From positions 48,508,766 through 48,572,765 of the forward strand of contig NC_054707.1 of the NCBI RefSeq assembly GCF_016097555.1: a stretch of DNA of 64,000 bases, read 5' to 3'. Position numbers and translations under genes: made by a program. The DNA is from Gigantopelta aegis. Lineage: Eukaryota; Mollusca; Gastropoda; Neomphalida; Peltospiridae. Below, piece by piece: positions 2,931-59,297 of this stretch (positions are counted from its first letter, which is position 1; each line of letters begins with the position of its first letter). The notes under the pieces are model-generated. The model was given only the letters and a program-made list of their open reading frames with translations, was not told where the DNA came from and ran no database searches.

Positions 2931-4145
2931 ATATATATAGTGTCACTTATTACATAATTTTCAATATATAACGTTCATTCTTTCAATGTTAACAATGTAT
3001 ATAAAGTGTATTAAAAGAAAATACATTAAAAATGTGTTAAACATATAAACACGGGATAGAATGAAAAACATTATATGTCACTTAATCGGCTACCGTCTAC
3101 ACGTGGACTTTAAAGGAACATCGAAGGTAGTTGTTTACAATAGTGATAGTTTCACTTTAGTATAGTGCAAGACATGAAATGAAAACACACAAAATTAAGT
3201 AACACATCAACTTTTATTTACACTTGCCATGAAATAAGACACAAATACAATTATAACGAATTAGGTTGGTTTTAGCAATTAAAATAAAATCCATCCACTG
3301 AAAAATTAACACTCTAGCTTTGACGTCTAAACAAACAATGATCAGAATTTGGACAAGCGAAACCAACACTACAAAAGTAATAATGTACGAAAAACATGAT
3401 CTTGATCTACTCAACATAAATTTAGGCGTACATGGTACCTTTTGCCATCTCAAAGTAACACAAAATATTTTAGTAATTTTAGTTAATATAGTTTACTCAT
3501 GACTGCTCAAATCAAAACTCTTAAATAATGTATCCTTAATATAATAATAATAATTTTTTTAAAGCTTACTATATAAGTAAATTATTATATACCAATTAAG
3601 AAATATATGTACCAAATTACCATACCAAAATTAATACAAATAAACCAAATTATATCCATATAATAAAAATAATTTATATTAAATAAAAAAATCCTAAATC
3701 CGTTTTCACAACAGCGTTTTCCTTTACTGGTTTCATTCCTTTCCTTTTATTGCCAATTTTTTTTTTTTTTTTAATTTAAAAATTTAAACACATTTTTAGT
3801 CAAAGGTTGTAAATCAGAATCATCAATGACATATTTTACTAAAAAAAAAAAAAAAATTCACCATCCCCTTGGCTTTTCAACTTCGATATTCCTTTAAACT
3901 CCACGTGTAGACGGTATTAAGTGACATATAGTGTTTGTCATTCTATCCCGTGTGAATGAACAGCAATTTTAAACTATTATTATTACATGTGTTATCATCG
4001 TTGTATATAATGTTTGTCATTGTATCCCGTGTTTATATGTTTAACACATTTTTAATGTATTTTCTTTTAATACACTTTATATACATCATTAACATTGAAA
4101 GAATGAATGTTATATATTGAAAATTATGTAGTAAGTGACACTATA
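2931..4145. mobile_element. Long inverted repeat with an unrelated 750-bp centre
   Basis: The left arm (about 2,931-3,131) is the reverse complement of the right arm (about 3,880-4,145). Both contain GTCTACACGTGGA, a match to CGGGATAGAATGA, and AAAATACATTAAAAATGTG or their complements. The right arm carries roughly 75 bp extra, which is one more copy of the satellite motif ATTCTATCCCGTGTG. The centre (3,132-3,880) is AT-rich and non-coding. The form fits a TIR transposon or foldback element, and its right arm runs directly into the satellite that follows. Confidence 0.6.
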
Positions 4146-6150
4146 TACTGTTCATCATTCTATCCCATGTGAATGAAAGTAAATTATATATAATTTGTAA
4201 TGTCATCGTCCTATATACTGTTCGTCATTCTATCCCGTGTTGATATGTTTAACATATTTTAAAGTATTTTGTATTTAAAACCCTTTTAAGACACCTGATA
4301 TACATTGATAATATTGAAATAATGAACTTTACATATGAGAAATTATTTAGTAAGTGACACTATATACTGTTCGTCATTCTATCCTGTGTTGATATGTTTA
4401 ACATATTTTTAAAGTATTTTTTATTTAAAACCCTTTTAAGACACCTGATATACACTGATAACATTGAAATAATGAACTTTATATATGGGAAATTATTTAG
4501 TAAGTGACACTATATACTGTTCGTCATTCTATCCCGGGTGGATGAATGTAAATTATTTAAAAAAAAATTGTAATGTAATCGTCCTATATACTGTTCGTCA
4601 TTCTATCCCGTCTCTACATCTTTAACACTTTTAATGTGTTTTTGAATTATTTTTCCACCAAAATATCTAAACCCCTTTTTTATATAATACTCCCCAAAAT
4701 AAACCCCTTTTAAGACATTTGATAATATTGAAAGAATGAAAGTTATATATTGAAAAATATGTAGTGAATGACACTACATACTGTTTGTCATTCTATCCCG
4801 TGTTTATATGTTTCACCTATTTTTAATGCTACTTTTATTTATTTTTCCCACAAAAAATATCTAAACCCCTTTTTCATATAATAGTCCCTAACATAAAACC
4901 CTTTTAAGACACTTGATAACATTTAAAGAAAGAAAGTTATATATGGCAAAATATGTAGTGAATTACACTATATACTGTTCGTCATTCTATCCCGTGTGAA
5001 TGAAAGTAAATTGCAATAAATGATTAGTGTCCACATCTCATATAAAGAGATAACTCTTGATAGAATGAAAATGTTAAATGCCACTCAATATATGGAAAAT
5101 TATGTAGTGAGTGGCACTATATACTGTTCGTCATTCTATCCCGTGTGAATGAAAGTAAATTGCAATAACTTATTACTGTCGACGTCTCTTAATAAGAGAT
5201 AACTCTTGATAGAATGAAAATGTTAAATCCCACTCGATATATGGAAAATTATGTAGTGAGTTACACTATACTATTCGTTATTCTATCCCGTGTGAATGAA
5301 CATAAAATATTGAAAAAATTGTAATGTCATCGTCCTATATACTGTTCGTCATTCTATCCCGTGTTTATATTTTTAACACAATTTTAATGCTATTTTTATT
5401 TCTTTTCCTCCCAAAAATATCTAAACCTCTTTTTTTTATATAATAGTCCAAAATAAAACCCTTTTATGACACTTGATAATATTGAAAGAAAGAAACTTAT
5501 ATATTGAAAAATATGTAGTAAATTACACTATATACTGTTCGATCATTCTATCCCGTGTTGATATGTTTCACATAATTATAATGCTATTTTTATTTCTTTT
5601 CCCCCCAAAAAAAATCTAAACCCCTTTTTTTTAATATAATATTCCCCAAAATAAAACCCTTTTAAGACACTTGATAATATTGAAAGAAATAAACTTATAT
5701 ATGGCAAAATATGTAGTTAATTACACTATATACTGTTCGTGATTCTATCCTGTGTTGATACGTTTCACATAATTTTAATGCTATTTTAAATACTTTTCCC
5801 CAAAAAAATATCTAAACCCCTTTTTTTATGTAATATTCCCCAAAATAAAACCCTTTTAAGACACTTGATAACATTGAAAGAAACAAAGTTATATATGGCA
5901 AAATATGTAGTGAATGACACTATATACTGTTCGTGATTCTATCCCGTGTTCATATGTTTAACATAATTTTTATGCTATTTTTATTTCTTTTCCCCAAAAA
6001 AATATCTAAACCCCTTTTTTTATATAATAGTCCCCAAAATAAAACCCTTTTAAGACACTTGATAACATCGAAAGAAACAAAGTTATATATGGCAAAATAT
6101 GTAGTGAATGACACTATATACTGTTCGTCATTCTATCCCGTGTGAATGAA
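3890..6150 (+). repeat. Satellite array, about 17 copies, period about 150-195 bp
   Basis: The motif GTTCGTCATTCTATCCCGTG and close variants recur near 3937, 4013, 4150, 4218, 4370, 4520, 4595, 4787, 4978, 5127, 5273, 5345, 5540, 5732, 5930 and 6122. The later units are about 191-198 bp apart and share the segments CCTTTTAAGACACTTGATAA and AAAATATGTAGTGAAT. Some units are short forms of about 70-150 bp. The motif also occurs in the arms of the inverted repeat at 2.93-4.15 kb, so the array seems derived from that element's ends. Confidence 0.8.
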
Positions 6151-10194: not shown

Positions 10195-33253
<23,059 letters not shown>

Positions 33254-41561: not shown

Positions 41562-42386
41562 TACTAAAAGGCAAAAGTTATTGTGACACACAAAAGACAG
41601 ATACTTGATGATAAGATTTTACTGCCGTGTATGAAACGTTATAACATGGAAAGAGGAATATCATGAAAAGGGACCTGCCATATGCAAATGAGCCACATCA
41701 CTAGAGGGGGGTCCAGAGCGAAGTCCACACAGTCAGTAGTGAGTGTGTCCACCTTGAGCATTGATACAGGCCTGGCACCGTCATCTCACTGAGGCCACTA
41801 AACGTTGGAGAAAGGGATGGTACGGGCTGTGAGTGTTGCTGGCTAGAAGCTGGCTGGAACTGGTTTCGCAGATGCGTGGTTCGGATCCATGTGTCTTGGC
41901 GAGGGGTTGTCACGGGTGGTCGGCCGCTACGGGGACGGTCCCTGACCTGGTTGTTTTGTTGATATCGTTGCCATAAGTGCCATATTGTCTTTCTGTGGAC
42001 GTTGAATTGACGTGCGACGTCACGCTGCGAGGTCCTAGATTCAAGCATCCCTATGACTCGCCTCTGTCATTTTCACTGAGGTGTGACATGACGAAATTGC
42101 ATCAAACAGTTCACTAATAGTGTTTTTCTGACTTCTGCCGTTCTGGACTTCGGAAGGCTGCACAGAGTGGCAATGATTTGCGACTGAATGTCTGACCTTT
42201 TATGGTGAACACTGGGCAGCATTTCTCCCGAATATTCCATGTTTCTTGCACAAAGCATGCAATTGCTGCTTGGTTGCATTTCTTTGAGCTGTTTTATGCA
42301 CATTTTCTCTTGTTTACATCTCTAAATCCATTCACAAATGTATTACTCTAAACAATCCATGTCACAATAACTTTTGCCTTTGAGGA
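41562..42386 (-). mobile_element. Internally deleted Tc1-like transposon nested in the SINE
   Basis: The inverted ends contain AAAGGCAAAAGTTATTGTGA and its complement, next to TA on each side. On the minus strand an open stretch (42,048-41,701) encodes the N-terminal paired-type helix-turn-helix of Tc1 transposases: TSQRDVARQFNVHRKTIWHL followed by RPRSGRPPVTTPRQD. The catalytic DDE domain is absent because the reading frame leaves recognisable sequence after about 75 residues, so it cannot move by itself. Confidence 0.8.
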
Positions 42387-44699: not shown

Positions 44700-45493
44700 C
44701 AAAATATAATTATCCTTTGACCAAAGTACTTCTTCAGTCTGTCTTTCAGCCTTCTGTCACGCTTGGAATGCCCCCTGGAAGTCACGTTCTTTAAGCGAGT
44801 CAATAACCAGCCTCGGTGTCAAAACGGCGACCCTTCAGATTGAACTTCATCTTGGGGAATCGCAGGGAACCAAATCCGGGGTGAGAAGCCATGATCATGT
44901 TCGTCCGGGTGAAAAACTCGCGTGTTTTCAACATTCTGTGAGGGGGCGCGTTGTTATGGTGGATCATCCAATTGCCATCGCGCCACAGTTGAGGTCGTTT
45001 GCGCCGAATGTCCTCTCTCAGACGCCTCAGAACGTTATATTAGAACTCGTGAGGCACAACTCGTTCAATTTCTTCGACATTTTCGGGGGTTGTGCTCGTG
45101 GAGGGTCGCCCTGACTTCTTGTCATCTTCCAGTGACGTTCTGCCCCTCTTAAATCGAGAATGCCACTCAAAACACCTCGCTCGGCTCATTGCTTCGTTGT
45201 TGTTTGGCTTGCTTAAGCATTTTGAGGGTCTCCGTTGCTGATTTCCCCGAGTTTGACACACAATTTGATGTTTGCTCTCTGTTCAAGTTTCAGGTCTATG
45301 GTGAAATCGCAAATAAGCAAGTAAAAGTGGTCACAAAAATTCGTGTAACACAGATCCCGATGTTGAACGCGCGACATCACATGGCATACTGAATAACGAA
45401 AGTCACTGCTCGCTCCTGCTGCACGTGCATGGCCATGTCGCGCTCCGTTCTTTCGCAACAGGAACAGTCTGGGAACTTTTTGATCGCACCTCG
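44700..45493 (-). pseudogene. Mariner-type transposase relic
   Basis: Beside a TA at 45,494-45,495 the minus strand begins CGAGGTGCGATCAAAAAGTT, a mariner-like terminal repeat. Downstream frames encode LEQRANIKLCVKLG, then RCFEWHSRFKRGRTSLEDD and SGRPSTSTTPENVEE (mariner helix-turn-helix region), and then, after a deletion that removes the first catalytic region, HHNNAPPHR, the mariner HHDNAPPH block with its second catalytic Asp changed to Asn. Several frameshifts are present, and the second terminal repeat is not found. Confidence 0.8.
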
Positions 45494-45763: not shown

Positions 45764-48700
45764 TTATTTATAGTGCTTCAGTGTCCTAGCAGACGGATCG
45801 TCTGATTTCGACCACTTTGGCATCCAGTAGTAGGGAATCCAAAATGATTTTCCAGGAAAGTGTTTCTCGAAAATCGTCCTGTAATAATAGGCTTCTTTTG
45901 ACCGTGGTGTGTTGTGTGGAAACAGACTAGAGGCTTCTTTGAGATCATCACTGTTAATCTGAAATGAAGATTGTTTTGTCAACTGACTGTAAAGTAAACA
46001 TCCTCTATCCACCGAACTCGACAATTTTGCTGAATAAATTGATGGAAAAATACCACCACATAAGAGTACTAAGTAATATATTTTTAGGAAGTACAGTAGC
46101 TTGGTAACTACATGACATGCAAATCATCAATACAAGTTAGTCACAAACGTGTCGAGTTATCTGCCCTTTAGCCAGACACATTTCCTCAATTTGCTGTTAT
46201 ACAAGGTGCAGCATTTCACATCACATATACAGTTATCATTTAGCAATGAAAACTAACAATGCAAACTTGATTTCAAACCACTAAGTTATTTATATAATAC
46301 AGAGATCAACCTACATGTACTTGTAATTAGTCTCCACGAGTACCCCGAGTACTCGGGCACGCGTCGAGTCTAGCAAGACTCGAGTACCCGTACTAGGTGG
46401 ATTACAATGATCAACTATAATACAATGGATAATGTAGGACAATAATTTCAGCAGTAGATAATCAACCATACAAGTTGCACAATAATTATATGATCATACG
46501 CTAGTTTCTCTTTTTAAACTGGCCGTCCGTCCTTCATAACGCTGAACATATCAACCTGCTTCTAAATGCAATGCAATAACATGATTTGACAACCATGTTC
46601 AGCGCTGGAATTAAGATGCATAATGCTATTTAACTTTATTCCTTAATCTCATCATCATCTAGTCCGAGTCGAGTTTGACCCTCGAGTACTCGAGTCCAAT
46701 ATTTTGGACTCATGGAGGCCATACTTGTAATCATTAAAGAAACTTTTAAAACTATTTCTGTATTTTCTAGTTATTTTTCAAAGAAGACCTACTTCCTAAA
46801 CTGGACTATATTAAGCTCCTACACAAAGTAACGACACAGTGAATGGTGGTGTGGTCCTTCTACCGAAAGGAACGTCTGTATAAGGATGCATTTCATCTTG
46901 GTAACTATTAGGTACACAGTAATATGTTAAGAAAAGAAAATAGCTGATGAAAATTAAATTATAATTTTCTATTGCCATTTGCTACAAATGTCATGTGACC
47001 TAAACTAGTTGAAACCTAATAACCTGCCAATAATAACCAATCAGGGACGAGTATTCAAATGCATATCACAAGGTTTTTCCCCGTTCCAGCTAGTATACCT
47101 CGACTGAGATATCAAACGCCATGTAATGTGGGAAATGCATATAAAAGATCCCTTGCTGCTGACGGAAAAATGTAACAGAATTTCTCTAAGACTACAAATA
47201 TAAAAGTACCAAATGTTTTACATCCAATAGCCAATGATTAATAAAACAATGTTCTCTAGTAGTGTTGTTAAACAAAACACTTTGATTTCTTTTTTTCTTT
47301 TTCTTTCTTGCACAAATTATGTAAGTTATATCAATGTCTGGTCACCCAAGAAGCATAATTTCTTTTATATATATGCAGTAAACATTTATAGAACAGTAAT
47401 TTTGACAGTCTAAGAAAGGACTCTCGCTACATTTTTCCTTTAGTAGCAAGGATCTTTTATATGCACCATCCCATAGACAGGATAGCACATCCCACAGCCT
47501 TTGATATACCAGTCGTGGCACACTGGCTGGAGCGAGAAATGACCCAATAGGCCCACCGAGGGGCCGCCAATTAATGAGATCCTTGTGTACATCAGAACTA
47601 ACGGCTGACTACCTTTTCCTCGACGTGTTCTTGAATGATATCGTGCCAGGATCTCGTGGTGGGAGACACTCCGTCACTGAACGCCTCTTTGGGTCTCCAC
47701 AGTATGTCCTGGGGTAGAAAATCACCGAGATCAAACGCTGAACGAAGCAGATACTTCTCTATTCCCTTTTTGGGCACTCGTAGCTCTTCATCGATGGAGA
47801 GGTAGTAACTGGTGAAGTGATGATCCAGGAACGGTACTCGTATCTCTAGGCTAAAAAATAAGTGAGAACAATAGTAAAAATTTTTTTTTTACAAATGAAT
47901 GAATGTTTAACGACACCCAAGCACAAAAAATACATCGGCTATTGGGTATCAAACAAAATTTGGACAGATAAAATTGATTTTTATTATTATTATTACTTTT
48001 TTAACAACACAGTGATCAATTCTGCCATATTGCAAACACTATTTTCTGTCTGCTTATAATTCTTGATCTCCTTATCCCCATGCCACTTTTGTTCACATGT
48101 CATCCCCATGAAAACGACTTCCAATCAAAGAAAAACATTACTGACAATAGTAAGTACTTACCACGATAGTAGTGCAGGGATTAATTTGTTATGATGTGAC
48201 TTGAGTCTACTGTCAGTTAAACACTGCCGTCCTTACTACTCACTTACTTTGTTATGATGTGACTTGAGTTTACTGTCGGTTAAACACTGCCGTCCTTACT
48301 ACCCACTTACTTTGTTATGATGTGACTTGAGTTTACTGTCGGTTAAACACTGCCGTCCTTACTACTCACTTACTTTGTTATGATGTGACTTGAGTTTACT
48401 GTTGGTTAAACACTGCCGTCCTTACTACTCACTTACTTTGTTATGATGTGACTTGAGTCTACTGTGAGTTAAACACTGCCATCCTTACCCCCACGCTGCT
48501 GTAGTCCTGTCTCCCCTCAATACATCATACATGTACAAATCCTCCAGAAGTCTGCGACTCTCGGCATCGGCCGCAGATGGCGACGGCGCGTTGTGGAAGT
48601 AGATGTAGCCTTGTGTGATCTCGTCCGACCCCTCCCCCGACATGATCACCACGGTGTCCGTTTTCCGGCTGATGTACTCACTCAGCAAATACATGCCTGC

Positions 48701-51700
48701 AATCACAAACATTTAGATATTCACTCAGCAAATACATGCCTGCAATCACAAACATTTAGATATTCACTCAGCAAATACATGCCTGCAATCACAAACATTT
48801 AGATACTCATTCAGCAAATACATGCCTGTAAGTGTAACATTCGCATACTCACTCAGCAAATACATGTCTGCAATCACAAACATTTAGATACTCACTCAGC
48901 AAATACATGCCTGCAATCACACATATTTAGATACTCATTCAGCAAATACATGCCTGTAAGTGTAACATTTGGATACTCATTCACCAAATACATGCCTGCA
49001 ATCACAAACATTTAGATACTCAGTCAGCAAATATATTCCTACAATCAACACATCCATGTACTCGCTCAGCCAATACACACCTGCAATCACAAACATTTCA
49101 ATACTCACTCAGCAAATACATGCCTGCAATCACAAATATTTCGATACTCACTCAGCAAATACATGCCTGCAGTCACAAACATTTCGATACTCACTCAGCA
49201 AATACATGCCTGCAATCACAAACATCTACATACTCATTCAGCAAATACATGCCTGCAGTCACAAACATTTCGATACTCACTCAGCAAATACATGCCTGCA
49301 ATCACAAACATCTACATACTCATTCAGCAAATACATGCCTGCAGTCACAAACATTTAAATACTCACTCAGCAAATACATGCCTGCAATCACAAACATTCA
49401 GATACTCATTCAGCAAATATATTCCTGCAATCACAAACATTCAGATACTCATTCAGCAAATAGATGCCTGTAAGTTTAACATTATTGTAATCACACAGCA
49501 AATACTGAGTTTCTCTAGTGGTTACATAACAGATACCAACAGATACTCTAACAGTGGTAATATCACACATACCGACAGATGTTCTAACAGTGGTAATATC
49601 ACACATACCGACAGATTCTCTAATATTGGTAATATCACACATACCGACAGATTCTCTAATAGTGGTAATATCACACATACCGACAGATGCTCTAATGGTG
49701 GTAATATCACACATACCGATATATGTTCTAATGGTGGTAATATCACACATACCAACAGATGTTCCAACAGTGGTAATATCAGACATACAGACAGATGCTC
49801 TAATGGTGGTAATATCACACATACCAACAGATATCAGTGGTAATATCAGACATACTGACAGATGTCCTAACAGTGGTAATATCGCACATACCGACAGATT
49901 CTCTAATTGTGGTAATATCACACATACCGACAGATTCTCTAATAGTGGTAATATCACAGATACCGACAGATGCTCTAATGGTGGTAATATCACAGATACC
50001 GACAGATGCTCTAATGGTGTTAATATCACACATACCGACAGATGCTCTAATGGTGGCAATATCACACATACCGACAGATGCTCTAATGGTGTTAATATCA
50101 CACATACCGACAGATGCTCTAATGGTGTTAATATCACACATACCGACAGATGCTCTAATGGTGTTAATATCACACATACCGACAGATGCTCTAATGGTGT
50201 TAATATCACACATACCGACAGATGCTCTAATGGTGGTAATATCACATATACCGACAGATGCTCTAATGGTTGTAATATCACACATACCGACAGAACCTCT
50301 AATAGTGTTAATATCACACATACCGACAGATGCTCTAATGGTGTTAATATCACATATACCGACAGATACTCTAAAGGTGGTAATATCACACATACCGACA
50401 GATGCTCTAATGGTGGTAATATCACACATACCGACAGATGCTATAATGGTGTTAATATCACATATACCGACAGATGCTCTAATGGTGGTAATATCACACA
50501 TACCGACAGATGCTCTAATGGTTGTTATATCACACATACCGACAGATGCTCTAATGGTGGTAATATCACACATACCGACAGATGCTCTAATGGTTGTTAT
50601 ATCACACATACCGACAGATTCTCTAATGGTGGTAATATCACATATACCGACAGATTCTCTAATCGTGGTGATATCACATATACCGACAGATGCTCTAATA
50701 GTGGTAATATCACACATACCGACAGATGCTCTAATGGTTGTTATATCACACATACCGACAGATGCTCTAATGGTTGTTATATCACACATACCGACAGATG
50801 CTCTAATGGTGGTAATATCACACATACCGACAGATGCTCTAATGGTGGTAATATCACACATACCGACAGATGCTCTAATGGTTGTAATATCACACATACC
50901 GACAGATGCTCTAATGGTGGTAATATCACACATACCGACATATGCTCTAATGGTGCTAAGATCACACATACCGACAGATGCTCTAATGGTGGTAATATCA
51001 CACATACCGACAGATGCTCTAATGGTTGTAATATCACACATACCGACAGATGCTCTAATGGTGGTAATATCACACATACCGACAGATGCTCTAATGGTGG
51101 TAATATCACACATACCGACAGATGCTCTAGTGGTTGTTATATCACACATACCGACAGATGCCTAATGGTGGAAATATCACACATACCGACAGATGCTCTA
51201 ATGGTGTTAATATCACACATACCGACTGATGCTCTAATGGTGGTAATATCACACATACCGACAGATGCTCTAATGGTGGTAATATCACACATACCGACAG
51301 AACGTCTAATGGTTGTTATATCACACATACCGACAGATGCTCTAATGGTGGTAATATAACACATACCGACAGAAGCTCTAATGGTTGTTATATCACACAT
51401 ACCGACAGATTCTCTAATATTGGTAATATCACACATACCGACAGATTCTCTAATAGTGGTAACATCACACATACCGACAGATGCTCTAATGGTGGTAATA
51501 TCACACATACCGATATATGTTCTAATGGTGGTAATATCACACATACCAACAGATGTTCCAACAGTGGTAATATCAGACATACAGACAGATGCTCTAATGG
51601 TGGTAATATCACACATACCAACAGATATCAGTGGTAATATCAGACATACTGACAGATGTCCTAACAGTGGTAATATCGCACATACCGACAGATTCTCTAA

Positions 51701-54700
51701 TTGTGGTAATATCACACATACCGACAGAACCTCTAATGGTGGTAATATCACATATACCGACAGATTCTCTAATAGTGGTAATATCACAGATACCGACAGA
51801 TGCTCTAATGGTGGTAATATCACAGATACCGACAGATGCTCTAATGGTGTTAATATCACACATACCGACAGATGCTCTAAGCAATATCACACATACCGAC
51901 AGATGCTCATGCTCTAATGGTGTTATATCACACATACCGACAGATGCTCTAATGGTGTTAATATCACACATACCGACAGATGCTCTAATGGTGTTAATAT
52001 CACACATACCGACAGATGCTCTAATGGTGTTAATATCACACATACCGACAGATGCTCTAATGGTTGTTAATATCACACATACCGACAGAGCTCTAATGGT
52101 TGTAATATCACACATACCGACAGATGCTCTAATGGTGTTATATCACACATACCGACAGATGCTCTAATGGTGGTAATATCACACATACCGACAGATGCTC
52201 TAATGGTGGTAATATCACACATACCGACAGATGCTCTAATGGTGGTAATATCACACATACCGACAGATGCTCTAATGGTGGTAATATCACAGATACCGAC
52301 AGATGCTCTAATGGTGATAATATTACACATACCGACAGATGCTCTAATGGTTGTTATATCACACATACCGACAGAAGCTCTAATGGTTGTTATATCACAC
52401 ATACCGACAGATGCTCTAATGGTGGTAATATCACACATACCGACAGATGCTCTAATGGTGGTAATATCACACATACCGACAGATGCTCTAATGGTGGTAA
52501 TATCACACATACCGACAGATGCTCTAATGGTGTATATCACACATACCGACAGATGCTCTAATGGTGCTAATATCACACATACCGACAGATGCTCTAATGG
52601 TGGTAATATCACACATACCGACAGATGCTCTAATGGTTGTAATATCACACATACCGACAGATGCTCTAATGGTGGTAATATCACACATACCGACAGATGC
52701 TCTAATGGTGGTAATATCACACATACCGACAGATGCTCTAATGGTTGTTATATCACACATACCGACAGATGCTCTAATGGTGGTAATATCACACATACCG
52801 ACAGATGCTCTAATGGTGGTAATATCACACATACCGACAGATGCTCTAATGGTGGTAATATCACACATACCGACAGATGCTCTAATGGTGGTAATATCAC
52901 ACATACCGACAGAACGTCTAATGGTTGTTATATCACACATACCGACAGATGCTCTAATGGTGGTAATATCACACATACCGACAGAACGTCTAATGGTTGT
53001 TATATCACACATACCGACAGATGCTCTAATGGTGGTAATATCACACATACCGACAGAAGCTCTAATGGTTGTTATATCACACATACCGACAGAAGCTCTA
53101 ATGGTGGTTATATCACACATACCGACAGAAGCTCTAATGGTTGTTATATCACACATACCGACAGAAGCTCTAATGGTTGTTATATCACACATACTGATAG
53201 GAGCTCCAATGGTTGTAATATCACACATACCGACAGAAGCTCTAATGGTTGTTATATCACACATACCGAGAGAAGCTCTAATGGTTGTTATATCACACAT
53301 ACTGATAGGAGCTCCAATGGTTGTAATATCACACATACCGACAGAAGCTCTAATGGTTGTTATATCACACATACTGCTAGGAGCTCCAATGGTTGTAATA
53401 TCACACATACTGACAGAAGCTCTAATGGTGGTTATATCACACATACCGACAGATGCTCTAATGGTGGTAATATCACATATACCGACAGAAGCTCATTGGT
53501 TGTTATATCACACCTACCGACAGAAGCTCTAATGGTTGTTATATCACACATACTGATAGGAGCTCCAGTGGTTGTAATATCACACATACCGACAGAAGCT
53601 CTAATGGTTGTTATATCACACATACCAACAGAAGCTCTAATGGTTGTTATATCACACATACTGATACGAGCTCCAATGGTTGTAATATCACACATACCAA
53701 CAGAAGCTCTAATGGTGGTAATATCATACATACCAACAGAAGCTCTAATGGTGGTAATATCACACATACCAACAGAAGCTCTAATGGTGGTAATATCACA
53801 CATACCAACAGAAGCTCTAATGGTGGTTATATCACACATACCGACAGATGCTCTAATGGTGGTAATATCACACATACCGACAGAAGCTCTAATGGTTGTA
53901 ATATCACACATACCGACAGATGCTCTAATGGTTGTAATATCATAGCTCTCCAGGTGATAGATAACCTTCTCGATGGCTACGATTCCCTCTTCTGGTGTGA
54001 ACACTACTTCGTGATGCTCAGTTCCTAAATACTTGGCAACCTGCCAATTAGTAAACATGATCACATTTCAAAACAATATCTTATGAATCTAAGTATTAGG
54101 TGCTTGACTAGAGCCTCGTGTATTCAAATGAGCTAGGTCACATTACCTCTCTTGCCTTTTGAATGACTGACCTCTAAGCGTGATTTCTGTCCCGGATTGG
54201 GCCCCTGGCCTCCAGAGGTCGAACCCGGGGTGGATATGCTCGAAACCTTAGTGGTATATGAGCATGTTAAAAACATTACATTACATTACATCTAAGCGTG
54301 GGGGCTTGGTGGTCTAATGACGTCACGACGTGGCTGACCTCTAAGCGTCGGTGCTAGGTTAATGGCTTTGGCAGCTTTCAACTGACCTCGATGACCGGGA
54401 TGAATGGGTTTGGCAGCTGTCGAGGGTCAGGAAACGGAAGTCGTTAATGACCCTGGCTTACGGAGGGGTGATTATGCAGCTGTTGGGGGTCCTTTGATAT
54501 ATGCAGAAAACAAATGGAGGCGGAAGTCAGTAAGGACTCGTAGAGAGGGTATCTCGGTTACGAGAAAAGAGTCGGGTGTGCCGTGGGAACCTGACCTCTA
54601 AGAGTGCTAACGGGGTTAATGGTTTTGACAGGTGTGGACTGAGTGGAATGTCTCTTTGTGTGGTATAATGAGAACCAGATGTGACCCTTGGTAACGGGGA

Positions 54701-57700
54701 GTCTTAGAGTGTAAATCTCAGGGGAAAAACCCCAGGATGTATTATCTCCCTATATGATGACCGACGTAGCGTGGGTACGCTATGGTTTTGGCAGCTGTAC
54801 AAATAATGTTAGAGGAAAATTCTACCAGGTCGTTAACCTTTAAGCCTGGCATCAATGTAAAATAATGGATTTTGCAGCTGTTGTGGTGAGCGTCGGTATG
54901 CTATGGATCATTGGATGGCGTGGGGTGTGACGTCACAAAAAATGCCCCAGACATTGCTGTATTAAAAAAAAAAAAAAAGCCACATTATTATCGGCCTCAG
55001 TGGTGGTTAAGCCATAGTACCGGTAGGTATTGGGTTCATATCCGGATATCAACTGGTGTAATGTACTTTTCACTAACCATTATCTCCCACTGTCCTGGAC
55101 AGGTAGATCGTAGATAGCTTAACTGCGTGCGTGTGTCCAGGATAGCGTGCTTAAACCTTAATGTCACAGAGACGTCCATGTGTATTATATTAGGTTGCTA
55201 GAGTGTTGTTTTGTTTTGAAATACAACCCTTCTTTGATATCTCGCAATGGTCGCACAATGGTAATTTCAGAAAAAAAGCTGACAAAAGCATTAATGATTG
55301 TTACTTTTTTTTTTGGGGGGGGGGCTTTAATTCGCGGGGGGGGGGGCTCTGGCTCTGGCTCTGGCTGTAGCTCTTGTTGCTGCTGCTTTTACTACTTTTG
55401 CTGCTGTTGCTGCTGCTTTTATTACTTTTGCTGTTGCTGCTTTTGCTACTGCTGTAGTTGTTGCTGCTGCTGCTGTTGAGAAGGGTTATTTTTCCAACAA
55501 TCCATATGTTTATTTCGCACGTGACGAGTTAGATCATGAGGCCATACATACGTCTTAGAACAAATATAACACTGATTCGTGATATTGACTGTTGGATGAC
55601 TCAAAGTGAAATGATGATATCTGACATTTTAGGCCTATACTCGTCTGACGCCATTAGACCACGCCCCACGCTAGAGGTCAGCCAATCAGAGCTCAGGACA
55701 GGTCATGTGACCTAGCTGATTTGCATACATGAGGCTCAAGTGATGCACCTACTACTAATCTAGTACTGAATGCTATAAAGAGGAAACCTTTTGGATTAAC
55801 AAGCAAATGATATCAAACCGGCCTCGGTGGCGCAGTGGTTAAGCCATCGGACTACAGGCTGGTAGGTACAGGGTTCGCAGCCCGGTACCGGCTCCAACCC
55901 AGAGCGAGTTCTTAAGGGCTCAGTGGGTAGGTGTAAGGCCACTACACCCTCTTCTCTCTCACTAACCACTAACCAACTAACAACTAACCCACTGTCCTGG
56001 ATATACATCCCAGATAGCTGAGATGTGTGCCCAGGACAGCGTGCTTGAACCTTAATTGGATATAAGCACGAAAATAAGTTGAAATCAATGAAATCAATCA
56101 ATGATATCAAAATGAAAGCCTTTAATACTTGAGTCCTGTGTATCTCCCTCTTATCTATAAATGCTACTGGAATACTAAACGTGCATTACTAGAATATATT
56201 TGCTTAAAACCAAACAACAATTATCTAATACCTAAATAAGATAACAGGTGTGCATACAAAAAACCACAGCTACATGTATATTACAAAAAAACCCACATGT
56301 ATATGTAACAATTAACTTTAATTATCTTTCATTAAGTCTACCGTTATAGGTAATATAGGTTTACATTACTTTCTTAGCTGCAGTTAAATCAGGACTTCCC
56401 TCCATGCCAATAGCAAACGTCTGGATGGGATACGTTAACTTCATCTCTTTCGCCTTCTTCACAACAATCGCAGTGACTAGACTGGAGTCGAGACCACCTG
56501 TCAACAAACACAGAAATCTCAATCTGAACGGGAAAAAAATGTTACCACAACCTATAGCGATATTTGAGTGCATAGCCTGTCTTTAAAGGTGGATTAAGAC
56601 GTGTTGATTATGACTGACCTGAGAGTAAACATCCAATCCGTCTTTCGGCCATCATCCGCTTCTCTACAGCTGCTTCTAGACACGTCACAATGTTCTTCTT
56701 AATGTTGTCCGCTGAAATAGTGAACACAATCATTACTTCATGCTAACTTCAGGGGCTATGGAACGGGGGTGGAGTAGCAGGAGCCATGATCCTCCCACTT
56801 TTCTGAGTTATTATGCTCAGCAAGCTGGAAACGCCCCTGAACCCTCCCCCATTACTAACAGGTTCAGGCCCTTAAATGTCCATACCTTAGGTCATTGCAG
56901 TGACTTTGGCCCACCCATGACGAAATACACTCCGCAGGCCCTGAACTTAAACATGTTACCAGTCTCGGCGATGTCGTGGTTAAGCCATCGGACATATGAC
57001 TAGTAGGTAGTAGGTTCACAGCCCGGTATCGTCTCCCACCCAGAGCAACTTTTAAAAATTCAATGGGTATGTGTAAGACCACTGCAGCATATTCTCTCTG
57101 ACTAACCACTAAGAACTAATAACTAACCCAATGTCCTGGACAGACCGCCCAGATAGCTGAGGTGTGTGCACAAGGCAGCGTGATTGAACTTTAATTGGAT
57201 ATAAGCACAAAAATAAGTTGAAATGAATGAAATAAACATGTTATTTTTAAAGCATGTCAACTCCAGAAAATCTATATAAAAAACATTAATTTTCTTACCC
57301 AAAATACTTTCTTACTGTCTACATTTTGACTTACTTAATGGAGGACATATAGTTTTGTAAACTGGCTCTGTCCCCATCTTGTGATATCTCGCTCTTTCTT
57401 TAAACTGGGCATGACCCAAATGGTCAAGGTCATATACCTCCACATGTCCTGGGGAAAATAGCTGGATATCTGCATCTTTGTCCGTGAAGCCATGACTAAG
57501 ACCAAATAAACCTGGAAAAAAGTAAATCAGTCATCTATTGAGTGGTACGCAGTTGTGAAAAAGTCGTTTTAAGACGAAGAGTGGAACCATTCTTGTACAA
57601 GTTTGGACTTGTCTTTCATGACTAGTTTGGTCAACAGCCACCCACACAATTTCCCCAAACAGCAAAGCATCCACGCACCCGAAACCCAAAACCCACCCAC

Positions 57701-59297
57701 CCATCCATCCATCTATCCACCCACACAAACCATCCATCCATCTCCATAATCCATCTATTCATCCACCCACACACTATTCATCCACCCACACACCCTCCAT
57801 CCATCCACCCACCCACCCATCCACCCACCCATCCATCCCTCCACCCACACACACACCCTCCATCCACCCATCCACCCACCCATACATCCCTCCAACCACC
57901 CATCCACTCTCCATCCATCCATCCACCCTCCATCAACCCTCCATCCATCCATCCACCCTCCATCAACCCATCCATCCATCCACCTACCCACACACCCTCC
58001 ATCCACCCATCCATTCATCCATCCATTCATCCATCCATCCACCCACTCATCCACCCACCCATCCATCCACTCACTGATTCAAAACAAGAGGACAATTTAA
58101 AACATTACCTTTTGCTTCAGAACACACGGCGAGGAATCCCTTATCTGTAATGAGTCTGTACATTGGTCGAATGCCGGCCGAGTCACGACCCAGGATGACC
58201 TTTCTGTTCGTCGTGTCGAGAAGACAGAAGCTGAAGACCCCGTCAAGATGACTGGCAGTGAATTCCGCGCCAAACTTGGCGTACAGGTGGATTATTGGTT
58301 CACCGTCGCACTCTGTGCTGGTGTTCAGATCAAACTCCTCAGTGAGCTGTGGAACACACAACACTGTTCATTGTAAACTCATCAGGAGTTTAGTTCTAAG
58401 ATTTGACTGGATGCCCATGGCTTTGACTTAGGGAATTTTAGCGTCATTTTACAAAAGAATTGGGAATTTTCAGTGTCATATCAAAAACACACACCCTGCT
58501 CAAGGCGAAAAAAAATTTCATGTCCCGATTTTTTACATTCCTGTGAATGTGGTCAGAAAGCAGCTCGGCTAGCCAGCAGAAAACACCTCAGAATAGCCCT
58601 AGAAGGGGTCAATTTTTCAAAAAATTTGGGGGGGAGGGCCCCCCAGACCCCCCGCCACGAGCTTCGCCAGACACCTCTACCCCCCCCCCTCCCCTGCAAA
58701 ATTTCCTGCGCACGCTCCTGAAGAGGCAAAATCAGTATTTAACGTACGAATATAAAACGCAGTATTCTATCTCTTAACCAGAGTTAATTTAAATCTTTTC
58801 AAGCCAAAATGTATTTACAGCACATGCACTTGCAGTTTGCTTGTACATCATATGTAAAACATGGCATCTGTAGTGTTAATTTCAGTAGACGGTTTAATTT
58901 TGATATGTAGATCATCACTATGGAGCAGCCAATGACATGTCTTTAAATATTTTTCGAATATCTATTGGATACAGCCGTGTTATAGAATAAATATCATACA
59001 GTGTTCTTTCAAACGGTTGTGTAAGAAAATTTGTTGTTCCACACTCACCAGTTTGTGGTTATAGATTTCTCCGTTGTAGATGAGCCAAATGTGAGGGTGT
59101 GTGTACAGCCTCATGGGCTGCATACCGCGGATGTCGTCAACGATGGCCAAGCGGTGGAAGCCGAGGCAGCAGTTGCGGAAGTGGTTGATGTTCTCGATCC
59201 GGAACGTGTCGGGTCCACGGTGTGTGATGGTGTGCACGGCACTACACTGTACTGACACGTCGTCATCACTGCCAAACACAGCCCATATACCACACAT
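45764..59297 (-). CDS. ASNS: Asparagine synthetase (glutamine-hydrolysing), 9 coding exons, 550 aa
   Basis: Makes asparagine from aspartate, glutamine and ATP in the cytosol. Exons in order on the minus strand: 59297-59049, 58346-58109, 57511-57335, 56711-56619, 56497-56370, 54040-53914, 48696-48489, 47850-47613, 45958-45764. Every junction keeps phase and the total is 1,653 bp. The N-terminal glutaminase domain begins [12 protein letters not shown] with nucleophile Cys2 and contains HRGPD and NGEIYNH. The synthetase domain has the ATP pyrophosphate loop SGGLDSS (252-258), [48 protein letters not shown] and the C-terminal [11 protein letters not shown]. Length is close to vertebrate ASNS (about 561). 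Intron 6 splits Gly338 and consists of splice-site repeats. A 5' UTR exon and promoter lie near 59.9-60.05 kb. Confidence 0.97.
46320..46735. mobile_element. Imperfect TIR element in ASNS intron 8
   Basis: The left edge (TAATTAGTCTCCACGAGTAC) faces a diverged complement at the right edge (ATGGAGGCCATACTTGTAAT), and CGAGTACTCG palindromes occur near both ends. The rest of intron 8 holds two SINEs. Confidence 0.45.
47082..47285 (+). repeat. Degraded SINE in ASNS intron 8
   Basis: It contains CATATAAAAGATCCCTTGCT, CATCCAATAGCCAATGATTA and a tail GTGTTGTTAAACAAAACAC. It is oriented against ASNS transcription. Confidence 0.75.
47405..47575 (-). repeat. SINE fragment in ASNS intron 8
   Basis: The minus strand of AGCAAGGATCTTTTATATGC, GGATAGCACATCCCACAGCC and GGCACACTGGCTGGAGCG gives the SINE body. 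It ends about 40 bp from the exon 8 donor, in the same orientation as ASNS. Confidence 0.8.
48192..48488 (-). repeat. ASNS: Five 63-bp units starting with the ASNS intron 7 donor
   Basis: Exon 7 ends GCGTGGGG and the native donor GTAAGGATGGCAGTG follows at 48,488. The same start GTAAGGACGGCAGTG recurs at 48,425, 48,362, 48,299 and 48,236, exactly 63 bp apart. Each unit also contains GTAAGTGAGTA near its end, directly before the next GTAAGG, so donor-like sites come in pairs. The array is intronic and about half of the 638-bp intron. Confidence 0.95.
48661..49508 (-). repeat. ASNS: 43-bp array of ASNS intron 6 splice acceptor plus exon 7 start
   Basis: On the minus strand the native acceptor reads TTTGTGATTGCAG|GCATGTATTTGCTGAGTGAG (exon 7 from 48,696). 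About 19-20 tandem units of 43 bp repeat this junction, giving plus-strand CAGCAAATACATGCCTGC near 48,727, 48,770, 48,898, 49,110, 49,153, 49,196, 49,239, 49,282, 49,325 and 49,368. The acceptor AG is kept in nearly all units, including variants ending TTACAG. 43 is not a multiple of 3 and the unit has TAA and TGA in some frames, so only the exon-proximal acceptor yields normal protein. Confidence 0.95.
49511..53941 (-). repeat. ASNS: 36-bp array of ASNS exon 6 end plus splice donor, about 122 copies
   Basis: Exon 6 ends with codons for DITTIRASV plus G (53,914), followed by the donor GTATGTGT. The 36-bp unit is exactly these last 28 exon bases plus the first 8 intron bases, and it repeats head to tail to 49,511. 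Most units keep GTATGT, a strong match to U1 snRNA; variants give GTATAT or GTATCT. Because 36 = 12 codons without a stop, the minus strand reads [12 protein letters not shown] repeatedly (open over 51,149-49,815 and, together with exon 6, 54,064-53,432). Units near the exon show 72-bp dimers with GAPIS variants. Long plus-strand ORFs here are by-products of the same repeat. Confidence 0.97.
54093..55768. mobile_element. TIR element of about 1.7 kb in ASNS intron 5
   Basis: The left end (AGGTGCTTGACTAGAGCCTC, then GAGCTAGGTCACATTACC) matches the complement of the right end (GGTCATGTGACCTAGCTGAT to GATGCACCT) over about 60 bp, and GACCTCTAAGCGTG / CACGCTAGAGGTC extend the match inwards. It encloses a SINE end at 54,191-54,292 with an (ATTAC)n tail, a SINE at 54,991-55,180, G runs at 55,315-55,348 and a CTG-rich tract to 55,478. 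No transposase is recognised. Confidence 0.65.
54991..55180 (+). repeat. SINE in ASNS intron 5, third type
   Basis: CGGCCTCAGTGGTGGTTAAG (head), ATTGGGTTCATATCC (B-box region) and CCACTGTCCTGGACAG (body) match the 55.82 kb copy, with a shorter tail. Confidence 0.75.
55819..56105 (+). repeat. Complete SINE in ASNS intron 5, third type
   Basis: Head CGGCCTCGGTGGCGCAGTGG with B-box-like CAGGGTTCGCAGCC; body CCTCTTCTCTCTCACTAACC and CCCAGATAGCTGAGATGTGT; tail GGATATAAGCACGAAAATAA followed by GAAATCAAT repeats. Antisense to ASNS. Confidence 0.85.
56958..57242 (+). repeat. SINE in ASNS intron 3, third type
   Basis: Full-length but diverged copy of the 55.82 kb SINE, with GTGGTTAAGCCATCGGACAT in the head and GGATATAAGCACAAAAATAA in the tail. 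Confidence 0.85.
57690..58077. repeat. (CCAT/CCAC)n minisatellite in ASNS intron 2
   Basis: Tandem 4-bp words arranged in longer blocks. The minus-strand ORFs over it are Gly-Trp-Met-Asp runs and are not genes. Confidence 0.9.
58490..58735. other. Low-complexity repeat-like block in ASNS intron 1
   Basis: G-rich (GGGGGGGAGGGCCCCCC) then C-rich sequence resembling the ends of interspersed repeats. Boundaries are unclear, and the overlapping ORFs lack domains. Confidence 0.3.

Follow-up and report, generated by a model that had tools for sequence, protein, structure and literature searches.

How does an intron come to consist almost entirely of repeats of the splice sites at its two ends, and which of these copies would the spliceosome choose? 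The question is raised by a 64,000-nucleotide (nt) stretch of DNA from the deep-sea vent snail Gigantopelta aegis (NC_054707.1, positions 48,508,766 to 48,572,765; hereafter the window), which belongs to a 1.15-Gb assembly obtained with PacBio Sequel and Hi-C (PMC7895826). Its minus strand carries an asparagine synthetase gene, here ASNS-A, whose intron 6 is filled by two tandem arrays. We propose that intron 6 is, very probably, an old and ordinary spliceosomal intron with two minisatellites of the mirage type, that is, repeats spanning an exon-intron boundary, one across its 5' splice site and one across its 3' splice site.

Two arrays of splice-site copies make up intron 6

The joined exons of ASNS-A give the public G. 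aegis asparagine synthetase protein (P0001) with 550 of 550 amino acids (aa) identical, and the nine coding exons are separated by introns with GT-AG borders in eight of eight cases (Table 1). A reading of the sequence alone had described an intron of about 5.2 kb with about 122 copies of a 36-base-pair (bp) donor unit running to 49,511 and 19 to 20 copies of a 43-bp acceptor unit running to 49,508. The exact gene model gives 5,217 nt, and cyclic alignment gives 123 donor units and, on the acceptor side, 20 units (49526-48675), which include a weak innermost one with 16 differences from the consensus; both end points agree within 20 nt. One decayed donor unit lies beyond unit 123 and reaches 49501.

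The donor unit is composed of 28 exon nt and 8 intron nt, the intron part at exon 6 being GTATGTGT, and unit 1 (53941-53906) is the real end of exon 6, across the border between 53914 and 53913. All 123 donor units of ASNS-A contain the GT. The acceptor unit is composed of 21 intron nt and 22 exon nt, and the last one (48717-48675) is the real start of exon 7, across the border between 48697 and 48696. Hence, intron 6 carries repeats of the mirage type: the units span the exon-intron boundary, and the outermost unit is the real boundary. Within the intron the 123 and 19 good units account for 4,385 and 791 of the 5,217 nt, and the remaining 41 nt are decayed copies of both, in agreement with the earlier claim that the arrays meet without real unique sequence between them. 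Tandem Repeats Finder recovered both arrays.

A scan with 30-mers across junctions found copies of at least 80% identity within 6 kb at 3 of 46 junctions, namely, ASNS donor 6 (113 copies), ASNS acceptor 6 (14 copies), and one donor of the CUL2 gene (3 copies); the opposite-strand control gave such matches at 0 of 46. The BLAST version of the scan, which covered 47 sites, returned these three junctions and ASNS donor 7, plus three further sites with single or double matches of 13 to 14 nt that look like chance. For CUL2 the human protein was aligned and the exon edges were then read by eye. The 30 edges used do not include the donors of exons 1, 10, and 14 or the acceptors of exons 2, 14, and 16; the site assigned to 11768, which scores -8.8 bits, may be wrong.

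Table 1. Positions of ASNS-A, its arrays, and related features in the window
Feature	Position	Strand	Description
ASNS-A coding region	45764..59297	-	translation = P0001, 550/550 aa; introns GT-AG
ASNS-A exons 1-5	59297-59049, 58346-58109, 57511-57335, 56711-56619, 56497-56370	-	translation = P0001
ASNS-A exon 6	53914..54040	-	127 nt; final 28 nt (53941-53914) = exonic part of donor unit 1
ASNS-A intron 6	48697..53913	-	5,217 nt; two arrays cover 99.2%
Donor-spanning array	49529..53941	-	123 units of 36 bp; cyclic alignment
Meeting zone of the arrays	49488..49528	-	41 nt, decayed copies of both units
Acceptor-spanning array, usable units	48675..49487	-	19 units of 43 bp; 0-10 differences from consensus
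ASNS-A exon 7	48489..48696	-	208 nt; initial 22 nt = exonic part of last acceptor unit
63-bp array, intron 7 of ASNS-A	48181..48488	-	5 donor copies, from first intron base
ASNS-A exons 8-9	47850-47613, 45958-45764	-	translation = P0001
Presumed 5'-leader acceptor upstream of ASNS-A start codon	59298..59338	-	two divergent copies, spacing 32 nt, read by eye
CUL2 donor-spanning array	21474..21671	+	60-bp unit, one 43-bp copy; exon end 21489

The arrays grew within an old intron

Exons 1 to 6 of ASNS-A total 1,012 nt, so that intron 6 interrupts codon 338 (Gly) behind its first base, in phase 1. In the human gene, the variant c.1031-2_1033del removes 5 nt at canonical splice sites (PMC10611455) and therefore locates an intron of human ASNS behind the first nucleotide of codon 344. 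This codon, Gly344, aligns with snail Gly338, as counted on the alignment. Snail and human thus share both the codon and the phase, which makes the intron an old one, inside which the arrays expanded. These data also bear on the Rogers model, in which a young intron is born when a coding segment is duplicated in tandem. The intron start GTATGTGT and the exon 7 start GCATGTAT are alike at 6 of 8 bases by reading, as such a birth might leave them, but the human intron at the same codon and phase contradicts a recent origin, and we consider this explanation extremely unlikely.

Unit turnover is that of an ordinary minisatellite

The donor array of ASNS-A contains 55 distinct 36-mers, and the mean identity to the majority unit changes along it, from 0.933 in units 1 to 10 and 0.904 in units 11 to 30 to 0.978, 0.947, and 0.957 in units 31 to 60, 61 to 90, and 91 to 110, and 0.918 in units 111 to 123. 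This is concerted evolution in the core of the array with the boundary units spared, a feature of mirages that was assessed here on the donor array. A block of seven units recurs 50 units away, which shows that internal duplications occurred too. There is no age gradient from the exon inwards, as the difference of the donor units from the exon copy does not follow their distance from it (Spearman -0.07, P = 0.47). The donor array thus turns over like an ordinary minisatellite, with no indication of a steady inward march. The sequence-only reading had proposed growth from both ends by independent duplications; the two amplifications, of 36 and 43 bp with the exon edge outermost, are borne out, and the simple march inwards is not.

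Two signs of selection on the units were considered and rejected. A synonymous bias of the array variants, as for translated or exon-templated units, gave P = 0.06 in a Mann-Whitney test and P = 0.53, 0.18, and 0.007 in Fisher tests at cut-offs of 3, 5, and 10, with none significant in the paralogue ASNS-B. Selection preserving the GT in all 123 ASNS-A units was dropped as a claim upon the loss of GT in 2 of 40 ASNS-B units.

A paralogue has its own version of the intron

ASNS-B (P0002) is 95% identical to ASNS-A, and its start codon lies 26.6 kb off on the same strand; its exons also give the annotated protein exactly, and 17 of 217 four-fold sites differ between the two genes. Its intron 6 has 2,037 nt and both kinds of array, with about 6 acceptor units and about 40 donor units, the latter with an insertion of 376 nt; the corresponding counts of ASNS-A in the same assembly are 123 and 19. 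The majority 36-mer is identical in the two paralogues. They have 16 unit variants in common where 10.4 are expected (P = 0.0096), and a unit type with four variants occurs in both (units 64 and 114 of A, unit 40 of B). Unless gene conversion spread variants between the genes, a diverse donor array therefore probably predates the split of ASNS-A and ASNS-B.

The paralogue is also relevant to the possibility that the array was wrongly expanded or misplaced by the assembler. Tandem arrays are prone to assembly errors, and an amphioxus case, BflGb6, appears aberrantly assembled in the draft genome (PMC3087553, PMC3902484). An artefact is nonetheless highly improbable here, given that long PacBio Sequel reads were used (PMC7895826), that the units differ from one another, and that ASNS-B has its own version of the structure, complete with an insertion.

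A distant copy, ASNS-C on C5, carries at acceptor 6 six copies of a different unit of 136 to 149 nt. As its unit size and extent differ, we take this repeat for a duplication that struck acceptor 6 independently. In addition, ASNS-C has a 22-bp repeat in four copies (L034 9585-9673) within sequence that the alignment treats as a coding exon, which fits a decaying or fast-changing gene.

Growth of the arrays and choice of splice sites

We hypothesize neutral growth of both arrays, through replication slippage and unequal exchange, up to the point where they met and displaced the unique sequence of the intron. The outermost copy of each array would be protected from loss, since it holds coding sequence together with the real splice site; contraction would stop at one copy, while expansion would be free. 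The spliceosome would be expected to take the outermost donor and the outermost acceptor through exon definition, in which the splice sites on either side of a short exon, such as exon 6 (127 nt) or exon 7 (208 nt), are paired, and splicing errors would be removed or tolerated.

Several points weigh against this account. Scored with a matrix built from the 22 other donors of the window, 90 of the 122 other array donors are at least as strong as the true donor 6, so that strength does not explain the choice of the outermost one. Correct splicing of intron 6 is itself something that we infer from the annotation and from amphioxus. The sharing of variants between ASNS-A and ASNS-B could also stem from gene conversion, and the exact copy number is taken from a single assembly. 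No trigger of slippage was identified: hairpin-driven slippage was tried as a candidate and rejected, as DNA folding of five units or unit pairs gave structures no more stable than those of their shuffles.

Alternatively, the array might be in use, with inner donors inserting 12-aa repeats as regulated ASNS isoforms, as in human IFI6. The 36-bp unit is equal to 12 open codons and, with the true acceptor, donors 1 to 12 keep the frame to the protein end, so that donors 2 to 12 would insert 12 to 132 aa. However, the frame is lost from unit 13 through unit 123, any insertion would break a stretch conserved with the human enzyme, and the high-copy variants are not clearly biased to synonymous changes. 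Moreover, the two annotated G. aegis proteins among the 120 matches listed, P0001 and P0002, join exon 6 directly to exon 7, without an insertion. Regulated isoforms are therefore very unlikely. On the acceptor side, all 18 upstream acceptors scored lead to a premature stop; they come from 19 upstream units, in one of which the script found no CAG.

Are splice junctions birthplaces of tandem arrays?

Arrays also lie at other junctions of these genes. The intron 7 array of ASNS-A abuts the junction without spanning it, and its copies contain no clear exon sequence; in ASNS-B the intron 7 units measure 62 bp and, of 8 extra copies, 2 include the exon's final GTGGGG, the others being near matches. 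The presumed leader acceptor and the start codon of ASNS-B lie inside an array of 14 units of 44 bp (L012-L013, C9:48594626-48595252). That array repeats the presumed acceptor, the ATG, and the MCGIWAV codons, and use of an inner leader acceptor could bring many upstream start codons into the 5' leader.

Splice junctions, or the ASNS locus, could thus be true hotspots for the birth of arrays rather than places hit by chance in a repeat-rich genome. Four ASNS junctions (the exon 1 acceptor, donor 6, acceptor 6, and donor 7) bear arrays in A or B, acceptor 6 was struck again with another unit in ASNS-C, and one CUL2 donor is affected. Nine of 10 arrays in three gene bodies end at most 40 nt from a junction, against 1.95 expected and with none of 20,000 placements as high, although one of these nine consists of simple sequence and lies 37 nt from its junction, and the paralogues A and B are not independent of each other.

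The background is nevertheless dense. Our sample of C9, the contig that carries the window, twenty 10-kb stretches at 1-Mb spacing over the first 20 Mb (L014-L033; 12,692 bases are N), contains 37 arrays with periods of 20 to 150 bp over 20,075 of 200,000 bases, i.e., about 10% minisatellite. At this density CUL2 and ASNS-A have 4 array ends near junctions against 1.45 expected (P = 0.06); adding ASNS-B gives 8 against 2.02 (P = 0.0012), with the same dependence between paralogues. The 37 sampled arrays show no excess of splice motifs, since donor scores reach P ≤ 0.05 in 1 and acceptor scores in 2 of 37. A genome-wide seeding of arrays at splice motifs, a separate candidate, was rejected on this result.

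In the CCT genes (21 of 64 family matches, on five stretches), 0 of 42 exon edges are crossed by an array, the edges being ends of profile matches, some of which miss the true junction. In this survey a 24-bp array (L037 163-328) lies directly against one acceptor, a 70-bp repeat (L039 4414-4552) ends a short way upstream of another, and a third shows a 13-nt match that looks like chance. Array-bearing junctions amount to 4 of 17 in ASNS against 1 of 72 in CUL2 and CCT (P = 0.004), a comparison chosen post hoc that counts donor 7, only abutted in A; with donor 6 and acceptor 6 of ASNS-A alone it becomes 2 of 17 against 1 of 72 (P = 0.09). Our small survey reveals no general attraction of arrays to splice junctions. 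The abundance of repeats in this genome accounts for much of the pattern, and ASNS may be exceptional; on balance we find true hotspots a doubtful proposition.

Relation to known systems

In amphioxus, tandem repeats spanning exon-intron boundaries have been named mirages and are reported for Adh3, the globins BflGb6 and BflGb9, TnC, and PGBD5, without disturbance of splicing (PMC3087553, PMC3902484). Their copy numbers are given as 6 and 3 in two BflGb6 haplotypes and 3 for the 108-bp repeat of PGBD5 (PMC3087553, PMC3902484). The arrays of snail intron 6 belong to the mirages by two features, boundary-spanning units and concerted evolution in the donor array. They differ in size, with 123 and 19 units instead of the 3 to 6 given for BflGb6 and PGBD5, and in that arrays from the two ends of a single intron meet and take its place, in another phylum.

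A donor-site minisatellite in human IFI6 (6-16, G1P3) was reportedly described by Turri et al. in 1995. Two downstream repeat units of this gene are said to act as splice donors (PMC4526556), whereas the use of inner donors in the snail is hypothetical, and the snail intron has an acceptor array in addition. In potato RdRp, a tandem duplication across an intron-exon boundary created a new intron (Ma et al. 2016, PMC4974935). The potato duplication also crosses an acceptor, with branch site, tract, and AG, but it comprises two copies only and made a new intron, whereas in the snail an old intron was enlarged. Intron 1 of an earthworm metallothionein gene likewise holds minisatellite arrays (PMC12783039); units spanning a splice site are not described for it in the accessible part of that source.

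The sequence-only reading had stated that no intron of this construction was known, which the mirages of amphioxus and the IFI6 minisatellite contradict. Our literature search for mirage-type repeats found no mollusc case, the term being used for amphioxus, although this is no proof of absence. As far as searched, the mollusc host, the copy number, and the meeting of two mirages from both ends of an intron are new.

Other features of the window

CUL2 intron 1 (10320-10839, plus strand) reads as an AT-AC intron, CCA/ATATCCTTATTTT ... TTTGTCTAC/TGATGTC, and has the look of the U12 type, an assessment made by eye and guided by the frame of human CUL2. Within a CUL2 intron, an open frame of 655 aa (15878-17845, plus strand) resembles a reverse transcriptase of the long interspersed element (LINE) type, with a FADD motif seen by eye. 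A long array at 4101-6143 has periods of about 150 and 194 bp with the common module CTATATACTGTTCGTCATTCTATCCCGTGT. Two frames on the minus strand, 41701-42066 and 44803-45282, appear by eye to be fragments resembling Tc1- and mariner-type transposases.

What the intron means

The snail intron shows that boundary repeats of the mirage type, described in amphioxus, occur in a mollusc as well, in an extreme form, and illustrates that an old intron can enlarge through tandem repeats rather than transposons. It is also a natural test of splice-site choice, with 122 donor copies beside the real donor, facing 19 acceptor units. Mis-splicing would have readable outcomes, namely, an in-frame gain from donors 2 to 12 or, for the acceptors tested, premature stops, and the two paralogues with their different copy numbers provide a built-in comparison of array length with splicing accuracy.

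We raise, tentatively and as the less likely case, a broader idea: exon-intron junctions might act as one-way anchors for minisatellite growth, at which selection would retain the outermost copy and leave the array free to lengthen. The ASNS family would have been struck in this way at four junctions, including one hit twice by differing units, and a whole conserved intron would have turned into copies of its own splice sites. If this were true, mirages would be a general route of intron growth in animals.

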